Source: Aliamphritea spongicola | GTDB taxonomy: Bacteria > Pseudomonadota > Gammaproteobacteria > Pseudomonadales > Balneatricaceae | Assembly: GCA_024347235.1 (NCBI GenBank) | Contig: AP025283.1 | Location: 2,790,001-2,854,000, forward strand | DNA length: 64,000 nucleotides | Direction: 5' to 3' | Shown: positions 20,260 through 33,706 of the stretch, piece after piece | How positions within the stretch are numbered: position 1 is the first letter of the stretch | Layout: each line of letters begins with the position of its first letter | Translations under genes and position numbers: made by a program | The notes under the pieces: generated by a model | The model's database searches: none | Seen by the model: only the letters and a program-made list of their open reading frames with translations | Told to the model about the DNA's origin: nothing

Positions 20260-20385
20260 ACATCTGCAGTCCTGTAACGGGGACATCTCAACAGTCCCCG
20301 CAATGGGTAACTAACGTACTGCAAACATCTGAATTCCCGTTATATTTAAAGGATATAGGTGAACAGCTACGTCAGGAGGACGTCC

Positions 20386-20932
20386 ATGAAAGGAGTAATC
20401 TTCAACATTCTTGAAGAAATGGTCATCGAGAAATGCGGCATGATGGCCTGGAACGATATTCTCGAAACCCTCGGCCAGGATGGTATCTACACCGCTGGCA
20501 AAAGTTATCCGGATGATAAGCTCTTCGCACTGGTCGGTGAAGTTTCCGCCCGGCTGGAGCTACCGGCTGAAGCCGTTGTCGGCGCGTTCGGTGAGTTTCT
20601 GTTCGACCAGTTGGCCCGGCGTTATCCGGTGTTTCTGGAAACCCAGCCTACCCTCAAAGACTTCCTGAAAAGCATCGACTCTGTGATTCACGTTGAAGTG
20701 CGTAAGCTTTATGAATCGCCGGATCTACCTTCCATCATCTGCCATGAGCCTGACGAGCATACCCTTGTCATGGAATACCGCTCCCCCGCCAGCTTTGTCT
20801 GTTAGCTGAGGGGCTGATTCGCGGTGCTGCCAGCCGCTACAACGAAGCCATTGAAATGACCCATCCGGTCTGCACCCATCAGGGGCCGATCATTGTGATC
20901 TGATCATCCGCTTTACTGAGCAGGCAGCATGA
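20386..20932 (+). CDS. H-NOX heme nitric oxide-binding sensor (frameshifted near C-terminus)
   Basis: Cytoplasmic heme protein of about 181 residues that binds NO and controls the adjacent kinase. It opens with the family signature MKGVIFNILEEMVIEKCG. The proximal heme ligand His102 sits in SVIHVEVRKLY. The literal frame breaks in a C run near 20785; adding one C gives Tyr131, Ser133 and Arg135 (YRSPR), exactly the YxSxR motif that holds the heme propionates. A second base added in the G run near 20883 leads to DHCDLIIRFTEQAA and a stop that overlaps the kinase ATG (ATGA). A Shine-Dalgarno AGGAGG precedes ATG 20386. H-NOX identity is very secure. Confidence 0.93.
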
Positions 20933-21935
20933 ACAAAGAAGCCGAAGCGTATAAAACAGCCTATGCCCGGGAACGGGCTGCCCGCCTGGAAGCGGAGCAG
21001 TTACTGGATGATAAAAGCCGGGAGCTGTTTCTGAAAAACCAGCAGTTAGAAGCCTCTAACACACGGCTGAAAGAGCAGCATAATGCCCTTGTGCGTAACG
21101 AAAGCTGGCAACCCTGGGCACACTGTCCGCCGGTGTTGCCCATGAGATCAATAATCCGCTAGCCTTTGTTTACAGTAACCTTGGCAGCCTGAACGGCTAT
21201 ATCGGCGGATACCAAAAATTGCTGCAGATGGTGCAGTGCTGGCAGGCGGATGAGCAGCTGAGTCCACAACAGGCTGAGGCGCTCAGCCAGCTGATAGAAG
21301 CCGAAGATCTGGTGTTTATCAGCGAGGACATTACAGGCCTGCTGGCTGATTCACAGGAAGGTCTGGACCGCCTGAAAGACATTGTGCAGAACCTCAGACG
21401 CTTTGCCCATTCTCAGGATACCGACTGGGAAGATGTGGATGTGACCGACGGCCTGGAAAGCACCCTGAAAATTCTCAACAGCCAGCTGAAAAATACCGTC
21501 ACGCTGGAAAAACACTTTGCTGAATTACCCATGGTGCCCGGCAAAGCTAACGAACTGAATCAGACATTCCTGAACATCATCGTAAATGCCTGCCACGCCA
21601 TGAAAGATACAGAACGGCCATTACTGCGCATTGAGACCCGCAAGGAAGAAGACGAGGTCCTTGTTCAGATCACGGATAACGGCTGCGGTATGGATGAAGC
21701 GGTGCTTAAGTCCCTGTTTGATCCCTTCTTCACCACGAAACCCGTGGGCGAAGGCACCGGCATGGGCATGTCGATTACCTATTCAATTATTAAGAATCAT
21801 CAGGGGCGTTTGAAGGTGGCCAGTAAACCAGGCGTTGGTAGCCGCTTCAGTATTTATCTGCCACTGAAACGCAGTGAGTCGGCAAATAAGGATACGTTGT
21901 CAGACCCTCAGGATCTGACAGAAGAGCCGGTTTAA
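20929..21935 (+). CDS. H-NOX-associated sensor histidine kinase (HnoK-like), one frameshift
   Basis: Soluble kinase of about 335 residues without membrane segments. It starts with a charged coiled coil (ARERAARLEAEQLLDDKSRE), then the H-box [15 protein letters not shown], the N-box NELNQTFLNIIVNACHAM, and the G-boxes DNGCGMDE and GEGTGMGMSITYSI. A frame break in the A run near 21104 is repaired by one base (NEKLATLGTLSAGV). The start overlaps the H-NOX stop, so both are translated together. In H-NOX/HnoK systems NO-bound H-NOX inhibits the kinase, which feeds regulators affecting c-di-GMP; the convergent GGDEF-EAL gene fits this, but no dedicated regulator is adjacent. Confidence 0.88.
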
Positions 21936-21982: not shown

Positions 21983-24667
21983 TTAATCCGTCAGCCCGGG
22001 CTGTGAAGCAGGCACAGCGGCTTCTTCAACAGCCTCTTCATGCACAGCAGATGAGTTCATCACCTGCTCAGCAAAAACCTCTGCAGACATCGGCCGGCCT
22101 AACAGGTATCCCTGCACCGCATCACATCCGGCGGTGTGCAGGAAGTCATACTGATAGGCGTCTTCCACCCTTCTGCCACGACCTTCAGTCCCAGACCTTT
22201 AGCCATCGCAATCGACGCCAGAATCAGTTTCTGATCACTCGGATCACTGGCCAGATCCCGCACAAAACTGCGGTCAATCTTCAGCACGTCAAACGGGAAC
22301 TGTTTCAGATAACTCAGCGAAGAATAACCGGTACCGAAATCATCCATCGACAGGCAGATACCCATATCCTTGATTTGCTGCAGAACAGTTTTGGTGCTGG
22401 CATCGTGTTTGATCAACAGGCCTTCGGTGATCTCAAGTACCAGCTGATGAGCCGGGAAACCGCTCTGCTCCAGCGCCTGATGCAACACCTGAACGATATG
22501 GCCATCCTTAAATTGCCGGGGAGACACGTTAATCCCCAGAGTAAACTCACCGTTAAGCTGCTCACTCCAGCGCTTCGCCTGATGGCAGGCGCGGGTCAGA
22601 ATCCATTCGCCCAGCGGGACGATTAAGCCGGTTTGCTCGGCAACCGGAATAAACACATCCGGCGGCACCATGCCCAGCTGCTGATTATCCCAGCGCACCA
22701 GTACTTCCGCGCCCAGCAGCTGCTGTTCCTTAAATGAATAGATCGGCTGGAAGTTGAGATAGATTTCATCCCGTTCCAGCGCACCCCGTAACTGATCTTC
22801 CACTTCCAGCCGGTCGGTAATCTCGTTATTCATTTCCGGCGTATAGAAGGCAAAATTATTACGCCCTTCCGCCTTAACGTGGTACATGGCGGTGTCGGCC
22901 TTTTTCAGCAACTCTTCCGGCTGGGTACCATCCTGCGGCGCAATCACCAGCCCGATGCTGCCGGAAATAAAGTAACTGCGGCCCTGCAGCTGAAATTCCA
23001 TCGCCAGCGCCACCAGTATTTTGCGGGCAATGGCTTCGGCATCCGCCTGACTTTGCTGGTTTTCAAGAATCAGAATGAATTCGTCACCGCCATAACGGGC
23101 CAGGGTATCGTCTTCGTGGATCACGTCCTGCAACCGCTGGGAGACGGATATCAGCAGCTCATCGCCCACTTTATGCCCGAGGCTGTCGTTGATCTTTTAA
23201 AGTCATCCAGATCAATAAACATCAGCACCACAAAGCCATCATTCAGCATTGAGCGGCCAATGGCCCTCTCCAGGCGCTGGGTCATCAACGTACGGTTAGG
23301 CAGGTTGGTCAGGGCGTCAAACTGGGCCTGATAACGGACCAGCTTTTCACGCTGGCGGCGGACGGTAATGTCCTGCAAATTGATAATCGTCGCGGGGCCG
23401 TCATCCAGAATGATATGTTTGGTATTCAGTTCAACCGGAAAGCTCATGCCGTCACGGCGCAGTGCTTCAACCTCAATATGCTGCTCACTGTTAGCCATGG
23501 CCTTCTGCACCAGTTCAGCCTGGGCACTGCCCCACAGATCCGGCATTTCGGTACTGAGTAATTCACTACGGGTATAACCAAACATGCTTTCAGCAACTTC
23601 GTTGAAATCGATGATCTGGTTGTCCCGCAACATAAAGACGGCTTCACTGCCGGTATGGGTCAGTTGCCGTAAACGGGATTCACTGGTACGTAAATTCTGA
23701 ATATCACGCATCAGCTCCTCAATATACACCCGCCCCTTACTGAGCAACATCCAGGTAATCATCGCCAGAATCACCGCCACCAGCGACAACAGGGTTATTA
23801 CCGATACATCTGCAAAATGGCTGGAAGGCAGATAGTTTTCATCTTCCAGATACAGCCAGCGCCATCCGGGTAGCCGCTCAATTTCAGCCGTCGATACCCG
23901 GTAGGTATTGCTGAACTCATCGGTCACCACCGGCGAGCCGGTTTTCCAGACAAACGGCAATGTCTCGGTCACTCTCACCAAACTGACGCCCGTCAACCAG
24001 CAACTGCTGCTGCCAGCTATCCAGCGGGTTCATGCTTCTGAACACCCATTCACGGATGTTTGACGCCATGACAATGCTGTCCGGCGATAACAGCACCATT
24101 TTGCCCGGTACATCAGAAAACCGATCTTCCAGACCGGAAATATCAACCTTATTAACAATCACCCCCAGTAACTGGCCATCATCACCGCGCACCTGATGGG
24201 AAAAATACAGCCCCGCTTTTTCGTGCGGTATCCCAGTGCCAGATACACAGATGAGATCCCGGACAGCGCCTGGCTGAAATAAGGACGGTAGGCAAAATTG
24301 TTGCCCAGAATCTGCTGTTTCAGCGGATTATCATTCACAGCCACCATATAGCCGTCGAGATCCATGAGGTAACACAGGGATGCAGAGTTAATTTCACAGA
24401 TACTGTTAAGCAGCGGCGTCGGGTCGCCACCGGGGCTGGTGTAAAAATCTTTACCTCAGTCATGCTGGCTTGCAGATTTAACTGCCGGGACTGAGCCCGC
24501 AAATATGCATCGAGTTCTGCATTCACTTTTTCCACATAACTGTCGGCCCGCTGCCGGGACTGATGTTCAGCGTCGGTTTCAAGCAGCCAGAGATAACCGC
24601 CAAAACTGCCAAATACCGTCAGCAGACAGAGCAACGCCAGAGAAAACTGAATGGATTTAAGCTTCAT
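21983..24667 (-). CDS. Membrane c-di-GMP protein: Cache, PAS, GGDEF, EAL (frameshifted)
   Basis: A sensor of about 895 residues. N-terminal helix SLALLCLLTVFGSFGGYLWL, then a periplasmic Cache domain (LDGYMVAVNDNPLKQQILGN, FAYRPYFSQALSG). A second helix (VITLLSLVAVILAMITWMLL) follows, then a PAS domain (GSEAVFMLRDNQIIDFNEVA), then GGDEF with an intact YGGDEF active site. Last is EAL with EVLVRW, the loop DDFGTGYSSLSYL, the Lys in LKIDRSF and QGYLLGRP. Both catalytic sites look complete, so it may make and break c-di-GMP. Frame breaks at about 24440, 24200, 23960, 23200 (A run, restoring FKKINDSLGHKVGDE) and 22170. It faces the H-NOX operon. Confidence 0.88.
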
Positions 24668-25064
24668 GACACAGGTTTAAGCACTGACCGGTTGGGTTGG
24701 AATTAACATAAGACCTCTCTGTAAGCGTGTTTGCTGATACGTCAGAGTGGCCAGAGAATTATTTGAGAAAACATAAAATGCCGTTATTACATGCATAGTA
24801 CTGCTCCGGGATTGCTTACCGGTGATTCGACATCCGTTAAACATCCCGTGTTTCCGGCAAACTTATAATCTTCTGCGCTGTCCGGACGTAATTACATGAA
24901 ACTTAGGGTTAAGCCTACAACGATACTGGCAGTTTATCTGCTCATGAAGCGGGAGAACTCACCAGACTGGGTATACCCTGCCTTAAAATCAAACAGTTAT
25001 ATTACGGCCGGAGGCTGACTCTATCCTTAAGAACAGCCGGCAGAACAGCTGCTCAGCCCTTGCC
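24668..25064. other. Intergenic region without a recognised gene
   Basis: About 400 bp between the Cache-GGDEF-EAL start and the stop of the REC-HD gene. It must hold the promoter of the former. I see no credible ORF, terminator or repeat in it. Confidence 0.45.
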
Positions 25065-26344
25065 TCATTTACGCTGCTGAATATAAATCCGGAAGTGCTC
25101 TCCCAGATTAAATTCCATTTCCCGCAAGCGTTCGATGGCCACGTCATCCATGACCATACCGGCACTGAGCAGGAGTACATGCTGTTCACTGAGAAGGTCA
25201 CGGGTCAGCTTCATACCCGGCTTCAGTTCCACACTGCCAATATATTCATCCTTAAGAGCAGCCCCCTGCTTATTAAGTTCCTGCAGAGCCTTAACCAGTG
25301 TTTTCAGTGCTTCAGGGTTATAACGTTCTTCAGCGGTGTCCTGCATATAACGGATGGCTTCTGCGGTGCTGTAAGCCCGCTCAGAATAATGACCGTTCAC
25401 CAGCTCCACGTAGTCATTTACGACGCACAGATACTGGGCTCCAAGGCTTATTTCGTCCGCCTTCAGGCCTGAGGGATATCCGCTGCCATCCAGATATTCT
25501 TTATGCTGAGCAATAATCTTGCCGGCGTCATAAAGCGGCTTAACCAGCATAATCTGTGCCTGTGCCAGCAGAGGATGTCGGCGATACAGACGCTGCCGGG
25601 CCGGCGACAGCTGGAGATAGGCAGGCTTAATGAGTTGATCATCAAAACTCAGTTTGCCGATGTTACGTAACTGCCAGGCGTAATAGAGCTGCTTTAAATC
25701 GCCGCCCTTCAGAGGGCTGAGTTTGGCCACTGTGACCATCAGCTTATTCAGCCTGACATTGTCTTCCGCCAATTGTCCCAGTCGTCGGGCAGTCAGTGCG
25801 GAAAACATCCGCACCACTGAACGGTAACTGCTCTTAAGCTCGGTATGGCTATGTAACAACCGGGCAGTCCGGTCTTCAACGGCACCGGCCAGTTTACGGG
25901 TGAGTTTTTCAGCTGCTTATTACTTTCCAGCGTCAATTCATGCAGCTGTTCGTTTTCCCGTTTTAGCTGCCCCAGCTGTAAACATTTCTCCACCGCCTGC
26001 AACATTTCGTCATCTTCCCAGGGTTTGAGAAGAAAACGGCTGACCTTACCTTTATTGATGGCCCGAACGGTTACTTCCGACTCAACGGACGCGGTCATGC
26101 CGATGCGTTCAGTTTCCGGCCATTTGGCAGCCACTTCACTGAGAAACTCATCGCCGCTCATGTTGGGCATGTTCATGTCACTGATCACCAAATCCATGGG
26201 AATATCTTCCAGAATAGCCAGACCGGCCTCTCCGGATTCAGCGCAGTGTATATGGTGCCCGACAGGCTCCAGCAGCGCTTTCAGCGCCGCCAGGTATTCA
26301 GCGTCATCATCCACCAGAAGAATCGATCGGTAATCAGTATCCAT
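25065..26344 (-). CDS. Response regulator with degenerate HD-GYP-like output domain
   Basis: A 426-residue protein that starts with a receiver domain: SILLVDDDAEYLAAL, phospho-Asp in DLVISDMNMPNMSGDEFLSE and conserved Lys in FLLKPWEDDE. A coiled coil follows, then an HD-GYP-type domain (RLYRRHPLLAQAQIML, YLDGSGYPSGLKADEISLGA). The metal-binding HD signature, normally LHDIGK, reads LRNIGK, and the HHE motif reads QHKEYLDGSGYP. Loss of these ligands suggests no phosphodiesterase activity, perhaps c-di-GMP binding or protein interaction. One break at an A run near 25907 is repaired by a base (QLKKLTRKLAGAVEDRTARL). It is the last gene of a four-gene signalling operon. Confidence 0.85.
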
Positions 26345-26382
26345 GCCGCTCCCTGTAAATAGGTAAAACCTGCCGGTTGTGT

Positions 26383-28248
26383 TTAATCCTGCTGTACCGC
26401 TGCGGTATTTGCCGGCAGTGAGATCTGGAATTCAGTGCCCTTGCCAGGCTCGCTGGTAACCTTTATCGAACCGCCATGCTTTTCGATAATGCCATGGCTG
26501 ATAGAAAGGCCCAACCCGGTACCTTCACCCACTTTTTGCTGGTATAGAACGGCGTAAACAGGTCTTTCATGTTGTCGGCAGCGATCCCACAACCTGTATC
26601 CCGAACGCTGATTATTATCTGACCGTCACAATAACGGCTGGCTATAAATATATCCCCGCGGGTCTCAATCGCCTGTACGGCATTCATCAGTAAATTAATA
26701 ATCACCTGCTGAAGCTGGCCGGCATTGGCATCAATTTCCGGTAAATCACCATAGTCTTCATACACAGAGGTTTTGTATTTCAACTCGTTCCAGATGACCT
26801 TCAGGGTATCCTGAATAATGACATTCATATCCACCCGGGCCATTTCCGTTTCACCCACATGGGCAAAGCTCTTCAGGTTAGTAACGATATCCGCCACCCT
26901 TTCAACCCCGGCTGTGGATTCACTGATCAGTTGCGGTGCATCTTCCATGACATAGTCAATATCAGCGCTCTGCCTGAGTTCAGCCAGTTGCTTACGTTGC
27001 TCAGGAAAGGCTTCCAGCCATGCTTCACTGTGCCGGTCAATGAACTGCTGATAGCGCAGCATAGATGCCAGGTATCCCTCAAGGGTGCCCAGATTACTTT
27101 TGACATAACCGATCGGGTTATTGATTTCATGAGCAACCCCAGCTGCCAGCGTACCCAGACTGGCCATTTTCTCTGCATGGACCAGTTGATCCTGGCTTTG
27201 CTGCAATTGCCGGTTCATGCGGGCAAGGTCCTGATTAGAATGCTTTAACTGCTGTTCTCGCCGGTCGATCCGTCGCAGCATCCGGTTAAAGCCTCTGGCC
27301 ACATCCTGAACTTCCCGCCATGCACTGGTTTCATCGATCGGGTCTTTGTTTTTACTGACACTCAGGCGGCGTATCTCCTGCTGCAGATACAGAATCGGCC
27401 GGGCAATCGCCCTTTGTCCCCAGCGGTAGGCCAGCAACACCATGGCGATGGCCACCGATGCCACCAGCAACACCAGTTGCATCAAAATTTCCCAGCGCTG
27501 GTTATGCATGGCTGTATCGTCTACCTGAAACTCAAACCGCAGGTTCTGTGCCGGCCAATCAGCCAGGTACACCGCACCGCCCGGTTGTGGCTGGCCGTAA
27601 TGGGCCACTTCCTGATCCCCTGCAGCAGGCGAATATACATATCACTGAGACGCTCATTCAGTTGGTAATCGTTACTCATGGCACTCAGGGGATTTCTGTA
27701 ATCAGTGCCCCTTCCGCAAATCCCTGATATTCCACCGGAATGACAATGCACCAGTAATATTCACCGCGGATGGCATGCAGCATCACCAGTTCGGATACCT
27801 CACCGCTGATCACTTTTTGCATCCATGGGGCATGGCTGTAATCCGCCTCCAGTTCCGGCCGGGTCGAATAAACTGTACGCCCCTGAAAATCCACCAGGGT
27901 TTCTTTATAACGACGGCCAATCACCGAGAGATTCTGCATAAAGTCACTGACATAGCCGCGCATCTGTTCAGGCTGCAGTACCCCCTGACGCATCACCGGG
28001 AACGCCGCATGGTCACGTAACACGATCATTTGATTGGCAAGAAAACGTTCAAACTCAGCCACCAGAATCTGGCTTTCATGATGCAGATGCTCCTGCCGCA
28101 ACTCCTGCATGACACCGTTAATCCGTAAACCAACCAGCAGCACCACCAGAATGCCCATGATCGCAATACTAAGGGCGGTCAGGCGGGCAACCCCTCTGGC
28201 AATACTGGGTTTACGTGCATTTTGCTGCGGTGCTTGCTGTACTGACAT
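26383..28248 (-). CDS. Membrane sensor histidine kinase (frameshifted)
   Basis: Kinase of about 620 residues. N-terminal helix [17 protein letters not shown], then a periplasmic sensor region ([34 protein letters not shown]) resembling a Cache fold. A second helix ([20 protein letters not shown]), HAMP, coiled coil, the H-box [16 protein letters not shown], the N-box [18 protein letters not shown], and G-boxes DTGCGIA and [14 protein letters not shown]. Breaks near 27620 and at the A run near 26535 are repaired by single bases. It begins 2 bp after the stop of the periplasmic binding protein, suggesting that protein delivers a signal to this kinase; the REC-HD protein downstream is a likely phosphate acceptor. 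Confidence 0.88.
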
Positions 28249-28250
28249 AG

Positions 28251-29458
28251 TTATTCAGACTCCAGAATGATATTCCCCTGCCCGTTGTAGCGGGCCATGC
28301 GCAAATCCTCAGTCCCGAGGGCCTCATGGGCATCCGGCTGATCCGGGCTGAACGCAGAAAAAGGTTGCCGGTAGGTTTTGATCAGCCCTTCAACCGGTAC
28401 CTGCAACCGGTTAAGCGCAGCGCGGATAGCCGCCCGGTCAGCGATCACATCTCCCGTCAGCCCCGCCTGTTCGATGGCGGCGATCATCAACCGGGTCAGG
28501 TCATAGGCATGAATAAATCCTGCCGGGGCCTTAATATCCCGGGCGCTGATCACATCGGAAAAGTTCTCGCGGGTTTGTTGCAGCACCTGCTCTGCCAGCG
28601 GCGTCCGGGGCAATTCGAGAAATGAAAAACGGGTCTGGATAAATTTAAGGTCAGCCTGCTGGCGGGCTTCAGCAGATACATCTGTGGCGAAATCGCCGCC
28701 GGTAATCCCCAGTGACTGCGAACCGGTAACTTCAGGGAAGGATCTTCCGCCATTGCCTGCAGCAACACTTTGCCTTCCGGCGCGTTGGCCACCAGAAAGA
28801 TCACATCCGCACCGGAGTCACGGGCCGTACGTAAAATGGTTCTGGCATTGTATTGCCCCAGCGACCAGTTAAACCAGCTGACCCCGGCCGCCTTCAGGTT
28901 TCTGGCTGCCAGCGCGCGGAGCATATTTTTCGTTTGAACGTCCCCAGCCGGTATTTTCAAGCAACAGATAGGGACGGCTGAAACCTTCAGTATCCACTGA
29001 GTAGGCAGTGATAAACTCACCGGCCTTACTGTCATCCACCGACAACCGGTAGATCCAGTTTTCCGCCTCTTTACTGCGGGTAATAGGCGCCGCTGCCGCC
29101 CAGGGGTCCAGTAACAGAATTTTTGCCGGTTAATGAATGACTGATTCGCCAGCAGCGGAGGCGAATGCAAACCGCTGAACACCAACAGGCCCCGATCATC
29201 CTTCAGAAAGGCTTCCAAGTTTACCTTGCTGCGGGACGAGTTGCCCCGGTGATCCCGGATTACTATTTCAAACAGATAGCCTTCGATCAGAAAGTCACGT
29301 TCCTTCAGCGCCGTATAAATGCCCCGGTAAATCGATTCAGTTGCCTGCCGCGAAATGCTGTTGTCCGCATCAATATACAGCCGCATGAGGTTATCCCGGG
29401 CGAGAACCGGCCATGCCAGGACACACACCATCAGAAAAATGATCAGACGTAGCTGCAT
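28251..29458 (-). CDS. Periplasmic binding protein of the branched-chain amino-acid type (sensor component), frameshifted
   Basis: A secreted protein of about 400 residues with a signal peptide (IIFLMVCVLAWPVLA). It resembles ABC-type Leu/Ile/Val or amide binding proteins: LMRLYIDADNSISRQATESI, LLVFSGLHSPPLLAN, ARDSGADVIFLVANAPEGKV and the C-terminal PAGFIHAYDLTRLMIAAIEQ. No transporter genes are nearby. It sits directly upstream of a membrane kinase in the same operon, as in two-component systems that use a periplasmic binding protein as the sensor. Frame breaks lie near 29110, 28950, 28720 and 28625. The ligand cannot be named. Confidence 0.75.
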
Positions 29459-29498
29459 ATCGGTTACTCCTATTCATAAGGCAAATATGTTCGGACGT

Positions 29499-30117
29499 TC
29501 AGGCTTCCTTACGGTTTGAATTCATGACCAGTTGTTGTGCCAGTTCCCGCAGCCTCTGGTTATCAAAAGGCTTGGCCAGAACCTCATCGGCACCGCTATC
29601 CAAAGCCTTTTTCAGTGCAGCCGGTGGCAAGGCAGAAATCACCAGAATCCGGCAGTCACTAATCTGCCGGTTCCCCGGATATAGCGGATGACTTCATAGC
29701 CATCGAGCCCGGGCATACTCAGATCCAATAACACCAGATCCGGCTTTTCCTGCAGCATCAGGCTACCGGCCTGAAATCCGTCAGCCGCTTCATGTAACTC
29801 CCAGCGTAATGGCCGTAATACCCGGTTAATGGCCCGGCGGACATCTTTTTCATCGTCAACAATCAGCACCTTAGGAACACTGACGCCTGCCGTTTCTGTT
29901 GCAGAAGGTTTGCCTTCAGGGCTGGCTGTGCCCTGCAATTCAGCCGGAACAGGCAGCCCGTTTTCTTCCAGAAAGGCGATAAAATCACCTTCCTGTACCC
30001 GGTGATTGCCCCGGGCAAGCGGAATGCTTTCAGCTTGCCGCTGGTGATCCAGCGCAATACCGTTCGGGGATTTACGTTACACAGAGTGGCAATCTTGCCA
30101 CTGGTCAATGTCTGCAT
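29499..30117 (-). CDS. BldC/MerR-like HTH fused to a receiver domain (DNA-binding regulator)
   Basis: About 205 residues. The N-terminus reads MQTLTSGKIATLCNVNPRTV then LRWITSGKLKAFRLPGGNHR, a winged-helix HTH of the excisionase/BldC/MerR kind. A Pro/Ala-rich linker follows, then a receiver: VPKVLIVDDEKDVRRAINRV, phospho-Asp in DLVLLDLSMPGLDGYEVI, and restored CRILVISALPPAALKKAL with Lys in LAKPFDNQRL. The order HTH then REC is the reverse of most response regulators. Breaks at 30008 (C/G run) and near 29670. It heads the operon with the binding protein, kinase and REC-HD protein. Shine-Dalgarno AAAGGAG precedes ATG 30117, and an array of 9-bp direct repeats lies just upstream. Confidence 0.82.
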
Positions 30118-30153
30118 GGAGGCTCCTTTATTCCTCTCTATACTAGACACCTT

Positions 30154-30207
30154 TTCAGACAAATGCGACTTATCAGACAAACCGGACATTCAGGACATAT
30201 CCGACAA
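30154..30207. repeat. Six tandem 9-bp iterons upstream of the HTH-REC operon
   Basis: On the plus strand GAC recurs at 30158, 30167, 30176, 30185, 30194 and 30203, exactly every 9 bp. The units are TTCAGACAA, ATGCGACTT, ATCAGACAA, ACCGGACAT, TCAGGACAT and ATCCGACAA (consensus about WTCMGACAW). A further GAC at 30146 is out of phase. The array ends 37 bp before the HTH-REC start codon, so it overlaps the expected promoter. Confidence 0.75.
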
Positions 30208-30235
30208 GTTAAGTTTATTAAGCAAACCGCAGGCA

Positions 30236-30262
30236 CAAAAAGCCCGGCAGGTGCCGGGCTTT
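30236..30262 (-). terminator. Intrinsic terminator of uvrB
   Basis: On the minus strand AAAGCCCGGCA and TGCCGGGCTTT form a strong stem with a tiny loop, followed by TTTTTG. It begins 16 bp after the uvrB stop. Confidence 0.88.
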
Positions 30263-30277
30263 CCGTTAAGTTCGATC

Positions 30278-32293
30278 TTATAAGCCGCTGTGCTTGAGCT
30301 TTTCCAGCTGATCCCGGAAATGGGCGGCTTTCTCAAACTCAAGGTTTTTCGCCGCTTCATACATCTGATCTTCCAGCTTGCTCATGGCTTTAGCCAGCTC
30401 CGGCCCGCTCAGTTGTGACGGATCAACATTGTACTCTGCGGTCGCTTCAGCCACCTTCTTCGCCGCCTTAGTACTCTTACGGCCCGGAATAGACGAAGCC
30501 CCTTCCATAATGTCGGCAACCGACTTCTTAATGCCCTGCGGCACAATGCCGTGTTTCTCGTTATGCAGCATCTGCTTTTCACGGCGACGCTCGGTTTCAT
30601 CCATCGCCCGCTGCATGGAGCCCGTTACCCGGTCCGCATACAGAATCGCCCGGCCATTGATGTTACGGGCCGCCCGGCCAATGGTCTGAATCATCGAGGT
30701 TTCAGAACGCAGGAAGCCTTCCTTATCTGCATCAAGTATGGCCACCAGCCCTACTTCCGGCATATCAATACCTTCACGCAGCAGGTTGATCCCTACCAGC
30801 ACGTCGAACTCACCGATCCGCAGATCGCGGATAATTTCCACCCGTTCCACGGTATCGATATCCGAGTGGAGATAACGCACCCGAACCCCGTGCTCATCCA
30901 GATACTCAGTAAGGTCTTCCGCCATCCGCTTGGTCAAGACGGTAACGATGACACGTTCTTTATTGGCGGTGACTTTATTAATTTCACCCAGCAGGTTATC
31001 GACCTGGGTTTGTGCCGGCCGCACTTCCACCACCGGATCCAGCAGACCGGTTGGGCGTACTACCTGCTCCACCACCTGCCCGGCATTTTCTGCCTCATAT
31101 TTACCCGGTGTTGCGGAGACAAAAATCATCTGTGGAGAGACAGACTCCCACTCCTCAAAACGCATCGGCCGGTTATCCAGCGCAGACGGCAGCCGGAAAC
31201 CGTATTCCACCAAAGTTTCCTTACGGGAACGGTCACCTTTATACATGGCACCTAACTGCGGCACCGTCACGTGGGATTCATCAATGACTACCAGTGCGTT
31301 GTCCGGCAGGTAGTCGAATAATGTTGGTGGTGCTGCACCGGGATCACGGCCGGACAGGTAACGGGAATAGTTTTCGATCCCCGAGCAGTAGCCAAGCTCC
31401 ATGATCATTTCCATATCATAGAGGGTGCGCTGTTCAAGACGCTGGGCTTCCACCAGTTTATCGTGGTCACGTAACTGCTTAAGGCGTTCCTGCAGTTCCA
31501 CTTTGATCTTGTCGACCGCAGCCACCAGAATTTCCCGCGGGGTAACATAGTGGGATTTCGGGTAAATGGTTGCCCGGGGCACTTTGCGCAGCACTTCACC
31601 GGTCAGCGGGTCGAAGTAGCTGATGTTTTCCACTTCGTCATCAAACAGCTCGATACGCACCGCTTCTTTTTCGGATTCCGCCGGGAAGACATCAATCACA
31701 TCCCCGCGCACCCGGTAAGTACCCCGGTGCAGCTCGATATCATTACGGGTGTACTGAAGCTCAGCTAAACGGCGCAGAATAAAGCGCTGATCAATCTCAT
31801 CGCCCCGGTCCAGATGCAGCATCATACCCAGATAAGACTTAGGATCACCCAGACCGTAAATCGCCGATACCGTCGCAACAATGATGGCGTCTTCACGTTC
31901 CAGCAGCGCTTTGGTGGCCGACAATCGCATCTGTTCGATGTGATCGTTTATGGATGCATCTTTCTCGATGAAAGTATCTGAAGAAGGTACGTAGGCTTCC
32001 GGCTGGTAATAATCGTAGTAAGACACGAAGTACTCAACCGAGTTATTCGGGAAGAACTCTCTGAACTCACCGTAAAGCTGGGCTGCCAGGGTTTTGTTAT
32101 GGGCCAGCACGATGGTTGGCCGCTGCAGCTCTGCCACCACATTCGCAACGGTAAAGGTTTTGCCTGATCCGGTTACCCCAAGCAAAGTCTGCGCAGTTAA
32201 TCCTGCATTGATACCCGTAACCAGCCCTTCAATTGCGGTTGGCTGATCGCCGGCCGGCTGGAAATTCGACTTTACCTGAAAGCGTTGCTTCAT
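30278..32293 (-). CDS. uvrB: UvrABC excinuclease subunit UvrB
   Basis: Nucleotide-excision repair helicase-like subunit that verifies damage handed over by UvrA and recruits UvrC. Intact, 671 residues, the normal length. Walker A is [13 protein letters not shown]; the beta-hairpin contains [20 protein letters not shown]; the DEAD-like box reads VVIDESHVT; motifs V/VI are [14 protein letters not shown] and QTIGRAARN. The C-terminal UVR motif, [20 protein letters not shown], contacts UvrC. The start [10 protein letters not shown] is preferred over an ATG nine codons upstream because it matches the family. No LexA box is visible upstream. Confidence 0.98.
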
Positions 32294-32525
32294 AATGTGA
32301 GTTCGCTTGTGCTGCTGCAAAAATAAGAGAATCGGGGATTATACCCGGCAGGCCGAAAGAGGGACAAACGAATCTGTAGCACGAATTTAAAAAACAAAGC
32401 GTTATTTCACAAATATGTCGCTTTTTACGGTTCAGGGGATGCTTCCTCACATTGGTTTCCGGTATGATTGTGCGGTTAATCGACCGTGGAATAAATCCAC
32501 ATTTTCAGAGGATATGGGCTTGGAT

Positions 32526-33706
32526 ATGCAACTTTCCGACCGCGTAAACAGTATCAAACCTTCCCCGACACTGGCGGTGACCAACCGTGCTGCCGAATTA
32601 CGTGCAGCGGGTCAAAACATTATCGGCCTGGGTGCCGGCGAACCAGATTTTGACACCCCGGAACACATTAAAACCGCAGCGATTACCGCGCTGAACAACG
32701 GCTTCACCAAATACACCGCTGTTGACGGTACGCCAGCTCTGAAAACCGCGATTATTAATAAATTTAAACGTGATAACGGCTTTGATTACGAAGCTAACCA
32801 GATTCTGGTGTCATGTGGTGGTAAGCAGAGCTTCTTCAACCTGTCGATGGCCCTGCTGAACAAAGGTGATGAAGTCATCATCCCTGCGCCGTACTGGGTG
32901 TCTTACCCGGACATGGTTCTGATGGGTGAAGGTAAGCCGGTTATCGTGACCACTGAACAGGCTGCCCGTTTCAAAATTACGCCGGAACAGCTGGAAGCGG
33001 CCATCACTGAACGCACCAAGCTGCTGGTTCTGAACAGCCCCTCTAACCCGACCGGTGTTGCTTACGAACTGGACGAGCTGAAAGCTCTGGGTGAAGTGCT
33101 GAAGAAGCATCCGCACGTGATGGTTGCCAGCGATGACATGTACGAGCACATCATGTTCGACGACAAACCATTCGTGAACATCCTGAATGCCTGCCCTGAA
33201 CTGTATGACCGTACCATCGTACTGAACGGTGTATCCAAGGCTTACTCTATGACAGGCTGGCGTATCGGTTACGCAGCAGGTCCTGCGAAGCTGATCGGTG
33301 CAATGAAAAGATTCAGTCTCAGAGCACATCAAACCCGACTTCTATCTCTCAGGTAGCAGCTGAAGCTGCGCTGGAAGGTGGTCTGGAATGTGTTAACGAA
33401 ATGCTGGTTGCGTTCCAGGAACGTCGTGACTTCGTTGTTAGCAAGCTGAATGAAATCGAAGGCGTTGACTGCCTGGACGTTGATGGCACGTTCTACGCGT
33501 TCCCAAGCTTCCACGCTGTTATCGACAACGATGACCGTTTTGCTGATGACATCGCACTGGCTGAATTCCTGCTGCAGGAAGCCGGTGTTGCACTGGTACC
33601 GGGTTCTGCGTTCGGTGCACCGGGCAACATGCGTCTGTCTTTCGCTACCTCTATGGATGTACTGGACGACGCCATCGGCCGCATCAAGAAAGCACTGCAG
33701 GGCTAA
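32526..33706 (+). CDS. Aspartate aminotransferase, class I PLP enzyme (one frameshift)
   Basis: PLP-dependent transaminase interconverting aspartate and oxaloacetate with glutamate/2-oxoglutarate, about 393 residues. Hallmarks: IIGLGAGEPDFDTPEHIK, KYTAVDGTPALK, the substrate/PLP-binding NSPSNPTGVAY, ASDDMYEHIMFDDKPF, and the PLP-lysine in NGVSKAYSMTGWRIGYAAGP. One break in the A run near 33309; adding A restores MKKIQSQSTSNPTSISQVA, a near-invariant stretch of the subgroup I-gamma enzymes. The frame break in this core gene argues for sequencing error. An alternative ATG at 32514, closer to an AGAGGA, would add four residues. Confidence 0.93.

Follow-up and report, generated by a model that had tools for sequence, protein, structure and literature searches.

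An array of six short direct repeats at an exact 9-bp spacing was found in front of a regulator gene in a 64,000-nucleotide stretch of Aliamphritea spongicola DNA (hereafter, the window), and this array is a conserved DNA element in front of the HnoC-family gene. The protein family is already known; judging from sequence, the 9-bp direct-repeat array as its operator appears to be the new part, and the operator looks like a receiver-gated, BldC-type direct-repeat array. We proposed, and consider it probable, that the array serves as operator for the HnoC-family repressor whose gene directly follows it, and that the protein would there form a head-to-tail filament, repress transcription and be released when its receiver is phosphorylated.

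The HnoC family would thereby gain a defined and predictable operator, and the nitric oxide and c-di-GMP signalling of marine bacteria would be linked to a DNA-binding mode known from BldC. A direct-repeat HnoC operator was not found described in the literature searched (HnoC, H-NOX, HnoB/HnoD, BldC, excisionases, HTH_17 with a receiver), subscription papers lying outside its coverage.

The repeat array and its conservation

The features of the promoter region and of the regulator gene were the following:
30278..32320, minus strand: uvrB-like gene (named from its sequence), upstream of the regulator
30230..30262, minus strand: terminator-like stem-loop between uvrB and the array (30230-30246 by the scan, a longer inverted repeat at 30239-30262 by eye)
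30158..30206, minus strand: array of direct repeats with six units spaced by 9 bp, of which five read TGTC and one reads AGTC in the gene sense; conserved in orthologues
30146..30149, minus strand: seventh TGTC (GACA on the plus strand), separated from the array by a 12-bp step and directly beside the -10-like hexamer
30140..30145, minus strand: TAGTAT, a putative -10-like hexamer
29502..30117, minus strand: regulator with HTH_17 and receiver domains, filed in the HnoC family and split over three frames in the present assembly
30010..30117, minus strand: N-terminal BldC-like HTH, first 36 residues (HTH_17, E 1.2e-6; the family profile matches BldC chains)

The array was located between the gene at 30278..32320, which we take to be uvrB-like, and the regulator start codon at 30117 on the minus strand. 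The trinucleotide GAC starts at 30158, 30167, 30176, 30185, 30194 and 30203, that is, six times at exact 9-bp steps. The original prediction of six exact 9-bp iterons was right about the spacing and the six GAC, though not about the units, which are not exact copies: only the core repeats, as five GACA (TGTC in the gene sense) and one GACT, and the remaining positions vary. When the whole window was shuffled with its dinucleotides preserved and any period from 6 to 20 was allowed, a run of six same trinucleotides at a fixed period was obtained in 0 of 150 shuffles, the largest run being 5. The bare count of TGTC-N5-TGTC pairs in the window (four, three of them within the array) is weak, because 5 of 100 shuffles reached four. 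Past the last array unit, AGTC or GGTC was seen by eye at 12 bp in five orthologous loci (L012, L013, L015, L017 and L036), and TGTC at 11 bp in L002.

Orthologues were collected with the 36-residue HTH as the query, which matched 32 of 95 related genomes, and named genomes (Marinobacterium, Amphritea, Pontibacterium, Neptuniibacter, Alteromonas, Paraglaciecola and others) were added, the best 80 of 519 confirmed stretches being taken. Seventy-five loci with an HTH match were reduced to 68 by dereplication and a length cut and then to the 49 used; the latter cut was made by hit-list rank and by hand, and the window is not among the 49. The 19 loci left out were L029 and L030 (another HTH subfamily), L075 and L078 (Glaciecola, divergent receiver) and 15 low-ranked or other-phylum loci.

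The pair TGTC-N5-TGTC was present within 200 bp upstream of the gene in 38 of the 49 non-redundant promoters in the sense orientation and in two more in antisense, giving 40 of 49. The array had been expected to recur upstream of orthologous HTH-REC genes, its absence from close orthologues counting against the idea, and it was conserved there. In shuffled promoters the mean was 0.29 and the maximum 2 of 49 (200 shuffles, in which the relatedness of promoters was ignored). None of the 19 loci left out had an exact sense pair (antisense was viewed for six of them), therefore the sense count over all loci is 38 of 68. At other distances from 5 to 20, TGTC-TGTC occurred in 0 or 1 promoters, save for 18 promoters at 18 bp. 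With no motif preset, TGTC at lag 9 came top of all 256 tetramers and 26 lags (37 of 49 promoters, in 150 bp), lags 18 and 27 of the same tetramer coming next, and the autocorrelation peaked at 9, 18 and 27. Among 27 named loci (30 minus L056, L059 and L061, not dereplicated and with overlapping pairs counted apart), 38 pairs were located in the 5,400 bp upstream of the gene versus 8 in 325,889 bp elsewhere.

Promoters that carry the array have 2 to 5 exact consecutive units, or up to 6 when one mismatch per unit is allowed, and in L047 and L049 the 9-bp phase is kept across a degenerate unit (by eye). No pair was present in 9 of the 49 promoters (L005, L009, L010, L014, L019, L021, L022, L025 and L026), even though the HTH of the first three is nearly identical to that of carriers. 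The array stays in place while the neighbours change (uvrB, H-NOX, REC-HD-GYP and others). On a quickly built protein tree with 69 members, of which 46 have the pair and 23 lack it, its distribution took 7 changes versus a shuffled mean of 19.5, and 0 of 500 shuffles were as low; near-copies contribute to this clustering and several branches are long. The same regulator promoter was found in genome G011 (L013), a relative assigned to the genus of the window, and in Amphritea sp. (L037).

The probability that the repeat arose by chance, as a repeat of coding sequence or by recent tandem duplication was judged to be negligible. Nine is a multiple of three, and open frames joined to the gene extend wholly or partly across the array in the window (29863-30189) and in L037, L048, L138 and L140, but the encoded peptides differ (LSD/LSE in the window, CHKCPIC in L138, NVTNVT in L037 and L140). 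With respect to the gene, the units stand in different frames in these relatives, and therefore no peptide is kept; the frame called in L139 begins only with the gene. Chance is opposed by the 150 window shuffles and contradicted by the conservation of the pair across the 49 promoters. Recent tandem duplication was rejected: the units are not copies of one another and the array went unreported by Tandem Repeats Finder, a score of 30 included.

Two further arrangements were observed. The pair stands in the opposite orientation in three orthologue promoters (L028, L063 and L179). The distant relatives L150, L151 and L152 have AGTC, TGAC or TGTC units at 9 bp that run up to TATAAT (by eye), with an exact TGTC pair in L152 only.

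The regulator, its family and its neighbourhood

An N-terminal HTH_17 and a C-terminal receiver are both present in the regulator, the same architecture as in the protein of G852, a Shewanella oneidensis MR-1-like genome. In the window the gene is read in three frames (30117-30010, 30019-29660 and 29675-29502), and the Response_reg match lies in a piece of another frame. Further genes also seem split by single-base frameshifts, namely REC-HD-GYP, kinase, GGDEF-EAL and a gene that is presumably an aminotransferase (22102-30117 and 32415-33706). The genome is one contig with a listed completeness of 78.48%, and the regulator is intact in two congeners, G001 (206 aa) and G002; on these grounds the apparent frameshifts are more likely to be assembly indels than signs of decay. 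The receiver residues D89, D90, D133, S163 and K184 were invariant in 12 of 12 relatives and are visible in the window pieces too; by these residues the receiver is predicted to be phosphorylatable. The protein departs from classical MerR regulators, with a receiver in place of the effector or coiled-coil part and a direct repeat as the promoter element. NCBIfam gave no dedicated model for either protein queried among the best 25 of about 100 matches.

The neighbourhood of the regulator gene in the window comprised:
28553..29458, minus strand: gene that follows the regulator, periplasmic binding protein-like (Peripla_BP_6 match below the cut-off), frameshifted
26466..28248, minus strand: histidine kinase (sub-threshold Cache match and HATPase_c), in pieces, intact homologue in L138
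25068..26344, minus strand: REC-HD_5 (HD-GYP-type) response regulator, HnoD-like, in pieces, intact homologue in L138
22102..24667, minus strand: PAS-GGDEF-EAL protein, in pieces, that at 24338-24667 without a Pfam match
21219..21932, plus strand: histidine kinase (HATPase_c) adjoining H-NOX, HnoK-like by position
20359..20802, plus strand: H-NOX (HNOB) nitric oxide sensor, by domain match

The binding protein, kinase, REC-HD_5 and PAS-GGDEF-EAL genes share the strand of the regulator, and an intact homologue of the Peripla_BP_6 gene scores over the cut-off. Thus H-NOX, kinase, EAL and REC-HD-GYP genes accompany the regulator; the EAL protein of the window also bears PAS and GGDEF domains, and its broken pieces revealed no receiver. 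In relatives the regulator stands beside some of H-NOX, its kinase, REC-HD_5, REC-GGDEF-EAL, REC-HDOD and sigma-54 response regulators.

Further, 129 genomes were searched from a genus chosen via its decahaem cytochromes. Seven of them matched the HTH, six at E < 1e-17, and all six of these Shewanella-like genomes encode H-NOX. The H-NOX of G852 is 98% identical to the query, PDB chain 4u99, which we take to be the S. oneidensis H-NOX. The HTH-receiver gene of this genome lies between a REC-EAL gene (658 aa, weak GGDEF) and a divergent REC-HD_5 gene (441 aa), and a FIST protein and a kinase are encoded farther along. HnoC is reportedly the repressor of NO signalling in Shewanella oneidensis, a finding said to go back to Plate and Marletta in 2013. 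In the accessible text of PMC6335343, the three response regulators of the H-NOX network are HnoC (a transcription factor), HnoB (EAL) and HnoD (a degenerate HD-GYP). By sequence and gene order, the window regulator is filed in the HnoC family of nitric-oxide signalling repressors, because the gene company in G852 matches the HnoB/HnoC/HnoD set and the H-NOX/c-di-GMP cluster of the window. The earlier statement that no described system combines a BldC-type HTH, REC and a 9-bp array was therefore not supported with regard to the HTH and REC: the HnoC family has been described in S. oneidensis, with a repressor that phosphorylation releases, as seen in the portions consulted of PMC8738867, PMC12471899, PMC9814549 and PMC9938897.

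The likeness to HnoC covers the HTH_17-receiver family itself, the gene company (H-NOX, kinase, REC-EAL and REC-HD-GYP) and the TGTC pair, which also occurs in the promoters of the MR-1-like genome G852. By eye, the regulator promoter of G852 has TATC, TGTC and TGTC at 9 bp, and that of G813 has CGTC and three TGTC; a single exact pair was present in four of the six Shewanella-like regulator promoters, G852 included. The H-NOX promoters had the pair in five of the six genomes, namely G873 and G900 by pattern match and G852, G820 and G821 by eye. No pair was found in the H-NOX promoter of G813 or in that of the window.

The difference lies in the operator and the oligomer: an inverted repeat and a tetramer have been reported for HnoC, whereas the carrier orthologue promoters have direct repeats. 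According to the available parts of PMC12471899, PMC9814549 and PMC8738867, unphosphorylated HnoC forms a tetramer with tight DNA binding, its site being an inverted repeat that overlaps the promoter. Phosphorylation of HnoC is stated there to result in dissociation from the DNA and derepressed transcription. The site is given as an inverted repeat or palindrome overlapping the transcription start and the -10 (PMC9938897 and PMC9814549, both in part). In the accessible portion of PMC9938897, HnoC is placed among the MerR-type repressors and is said to bind a palindrome, in contrast to BldC, which binds direct repeats.

It is rather unlikely, in our estimate, that HnoC binds an inverted repeat at the -10 and transcription start as a symmetric tetramer, with the direct repeats as a by-product or partial view of that site. 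Besides secondary statements in the consulted parts of PMC9938897 and PMC9814549, such binding would agree with a 7-bp inverted repeat that surrounds two divergent -10-like boxes in G821 and in the hnoC/hnoD region of the MR-1-like genome, and with a 6-bp inverted repeat that encloses two units in G873. However, a search of the equivalent stretches in G813, G873 and G900 did not reveal the 7-bp repeat, and GACA..TGTC or TGTC..GACA occurred in at most 3 of the 49 promoters at any gap from 0 to 20. The best inverted pair of any tetramer, at gaps from 0 to 15, reached 8 of 49 versus 38 of 49 for the direct pair.

Likeness to BldC and the proposed mode of action

The predicted HTH was compared with solved structures. 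A profile of 13 HTH domains matched the BldC chains 6ama (3.1e-5) and 6amk (3.9e-5), with a cobalamin-binding protein first at 1.1e-5. For the predicted domain (pLDDT 88.8), BldC chains ranked first in both Foldseek and VIA-align; in the latter, BldC-DNA complexes were matched with Z of 9.1 (rmsd 1.1 Å over 51 residues) and 9.0, and the next was Pukovnik Xis with Z of 8.1. Thus, the BldC-like HTH of the original prediction, a winged HTH, was borne out both by the sequence profile (6ama and 6amk, E about 3e-5) and by the predicted fold, where BldC came first.

In the accessible text of PMC5859096, each BldC protomer covers 9 bp, the protomers are arranged head to tail, Arg30 reads the guanine of a TpG step, and apo BldC is a monomer. 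Residues 2-52 of the regulator match BldC 10-60. The equivalents of Arg30, Trp31, Val23, Gly44, Thr27 and Arg48 (R22, W23, V15, G36, T19 and R40) are invariant in both alignments, and Lys26 is replaced by an invariant Arg18. Of the head-to-tail interface, the equivalents of Val23, Trp31 and Gly44 are invariant and the Arg22-Glu16 salt bridge is not conserved (D/N14, mostly E/D8); in the wing, His46 corresponds to Asn38 in the regulator family. The BldC whiI-opt site reverse-complements to TGTCCGAATTGTCCGAATTG, that is, TGTC-N5-TGTC, and the orthologous promoter L003 has TGTCCGATTTGTC.

BldC is alike in being the closest solved fold, in the 9-bp direct repeats (for the regulator, a conserved promoter element and putative binding site), in the optimised whiI site with TGTC-N5-TGTC, in the invariant equivalent of Arg30 and in the reversible orientation of the array, as described at whiI. 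It differs in that its 68 residues make up an HTH protein with no other domain and no receiver, and in that it is a monomer when off DNA, whereas HnoC is reported as a tetramer. The salt bridge and wing His of BldC are also absent from the regulator family. Because of the fused receiver, the regulator was not filed as BldC, only as probably working like BldC.

Excisionases show a related winged-HTH fold. Lambda Xis, Pukovnik Xis and RdfS are recombination directionality factors, and to our knowledge they have no receiver. Lambda Xis and RdfS are described as oligomeric on DNA in the source text that was available. CvkR and McdR are non-classical MerR-type repressors that PMC9938897 compares with HnoC and BldC. 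In the accessible part of that source, McdR differs as a palindrome binder and CvkR by a motif located mainly in the -10/-35 spacer of one promoter; a receiver is mentioned there for neither protein.

The best reading by analogy appears to be a BldC-style, head-to-tail, autoregulatory mode. Each 9-bp unit, a TGTC core with an A/T-rich stretch, would be read by one N-terminal BldC-like HTH, and neighbouring protomers would pack head to tail into a short protein filament covering the stretch that directly precedes and adjoins the -10 box. Such a filament would repress the regulator and its operon, comprising the binding protein, kinase, REC-HD-GYP and GGDEF-EAL genes. Phosphorylation of the C-terminal receiver by H-NOX-controlled or other kinases would cause the filament to fall apart and transcription to rise, which would result in a feedback loop in the NO/c-di-GMP network. 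The array with its position and conservation, the HnoC-family identity, the gene cluster and the BldC-like domain with the matching site come from the present sequences. We infer that the regulator assembles head to tail, how far its operon reaches and which way regulation works in the present species; repression and its release upon phosphorylation were taken from the reports on S. oneidensis HnoC, not from the present DNA, and by the same analogy the receiver would control polymerisation of the regulator.

We also proposed, as a broader idea only slightly favoured over its opposite, that HnoC-family regulators are BldC-type filament formers in which the repeat number sets the filament length and receiver phosphorylation dissolves the filament. 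The natural series of operators with varying unit number is a test-bed for the phosphorylation control of filament assembly on DNA. If such a phosphorylation-gated filament is true, the published inverted-repeat operator would need revision, and the BldC binding mode, known from development in Streptomyces, would also serve nitric-oxide sensing in proteobacteria.

The same protein might act on the same operator as an activator, for example by replacing a missing -35 box, a reading to which we give a modest minority chance. The array sits at the place of the -35, and a scan of the window region for the sigma-70 promoter consensus reported none, but HnoC is reported, in the sources available in part, as a repressor released by phosphorylation. 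Moreover, TTGACT, a good -35, contains a unit in L016, L024 and L050, and therefore points to occlusion.

Searches for the box and the family elsewhere

The strict box TGTCRCAWATGTCRYA was found at 16 sites in 95 genomes; 7 of them lie in the promoter of the gene itself and 3 less than 10 kb from the gene. The remaining 6 sites equal the 6 hits of the reversed control, therefore the distant sites prove no regulon by number, and the definition of a regulon by box search was rejected, as the distant strict-box sites stood at control level. A looser three-unit pattern, which does not match the window array, gave 22 sites in 57 genomes: 9, from 7 genomes, belong to the promoter of the gene itself, and the 13 found elsewhere compare with 17 in the reversed control. 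Own-genome scans revealed no further array that exceeded the control.

We regard it as quite doubtful that another transcription factor binds the array and controls the HnoC-family gene. Five of the 95 genomes have the strict box at a place other than the gene promoter, among them G043, which gave no HTH match at E 1e-3; four of the five, however, encode the HTH protein versus 32 of 95 overall, the numbers being small. Binding by a different factor is also opposed by the agreement of the box with the known site of BldC, the nearest structural relative, and by the array following the gene through changing neighbourhoods.

Several strict boxes were observed beside signalling genes. In L266, L268, L272, L276 and L277 (G035, G053 and G037) they stand beside PAS, HAMP, Hpt-HD, MCP and dCache-HAMP genes. 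The boxes lie between called frames, that in L277 overlapping the first possible start of one, and their number is not above the reversed control. One FIST-domain gene, at L269 (G037:C1:33489), has a box in its upstream region, and another is located at L250 (9424-10611) in the hnoC neighbourhood of the MR-1-like genome G852. Both are presumably of the NosP type. The FIST-domain genes go with the H-NOX/HnoC system.

When a full-length alignment was used in the order around G439, 20 of 345 genomes matched, including another HTH-receiver subfamily in f226. This subfamily (L192 and L193) adjoins a 1205-residue protein, and no H-NOX was found among its neighbouring frames. A survey of H-NOX in the same order found it in 42 of 247 genomes, and among 30 of these loci no match to the S. 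oneidensis-type protein exceeded 51.7%.
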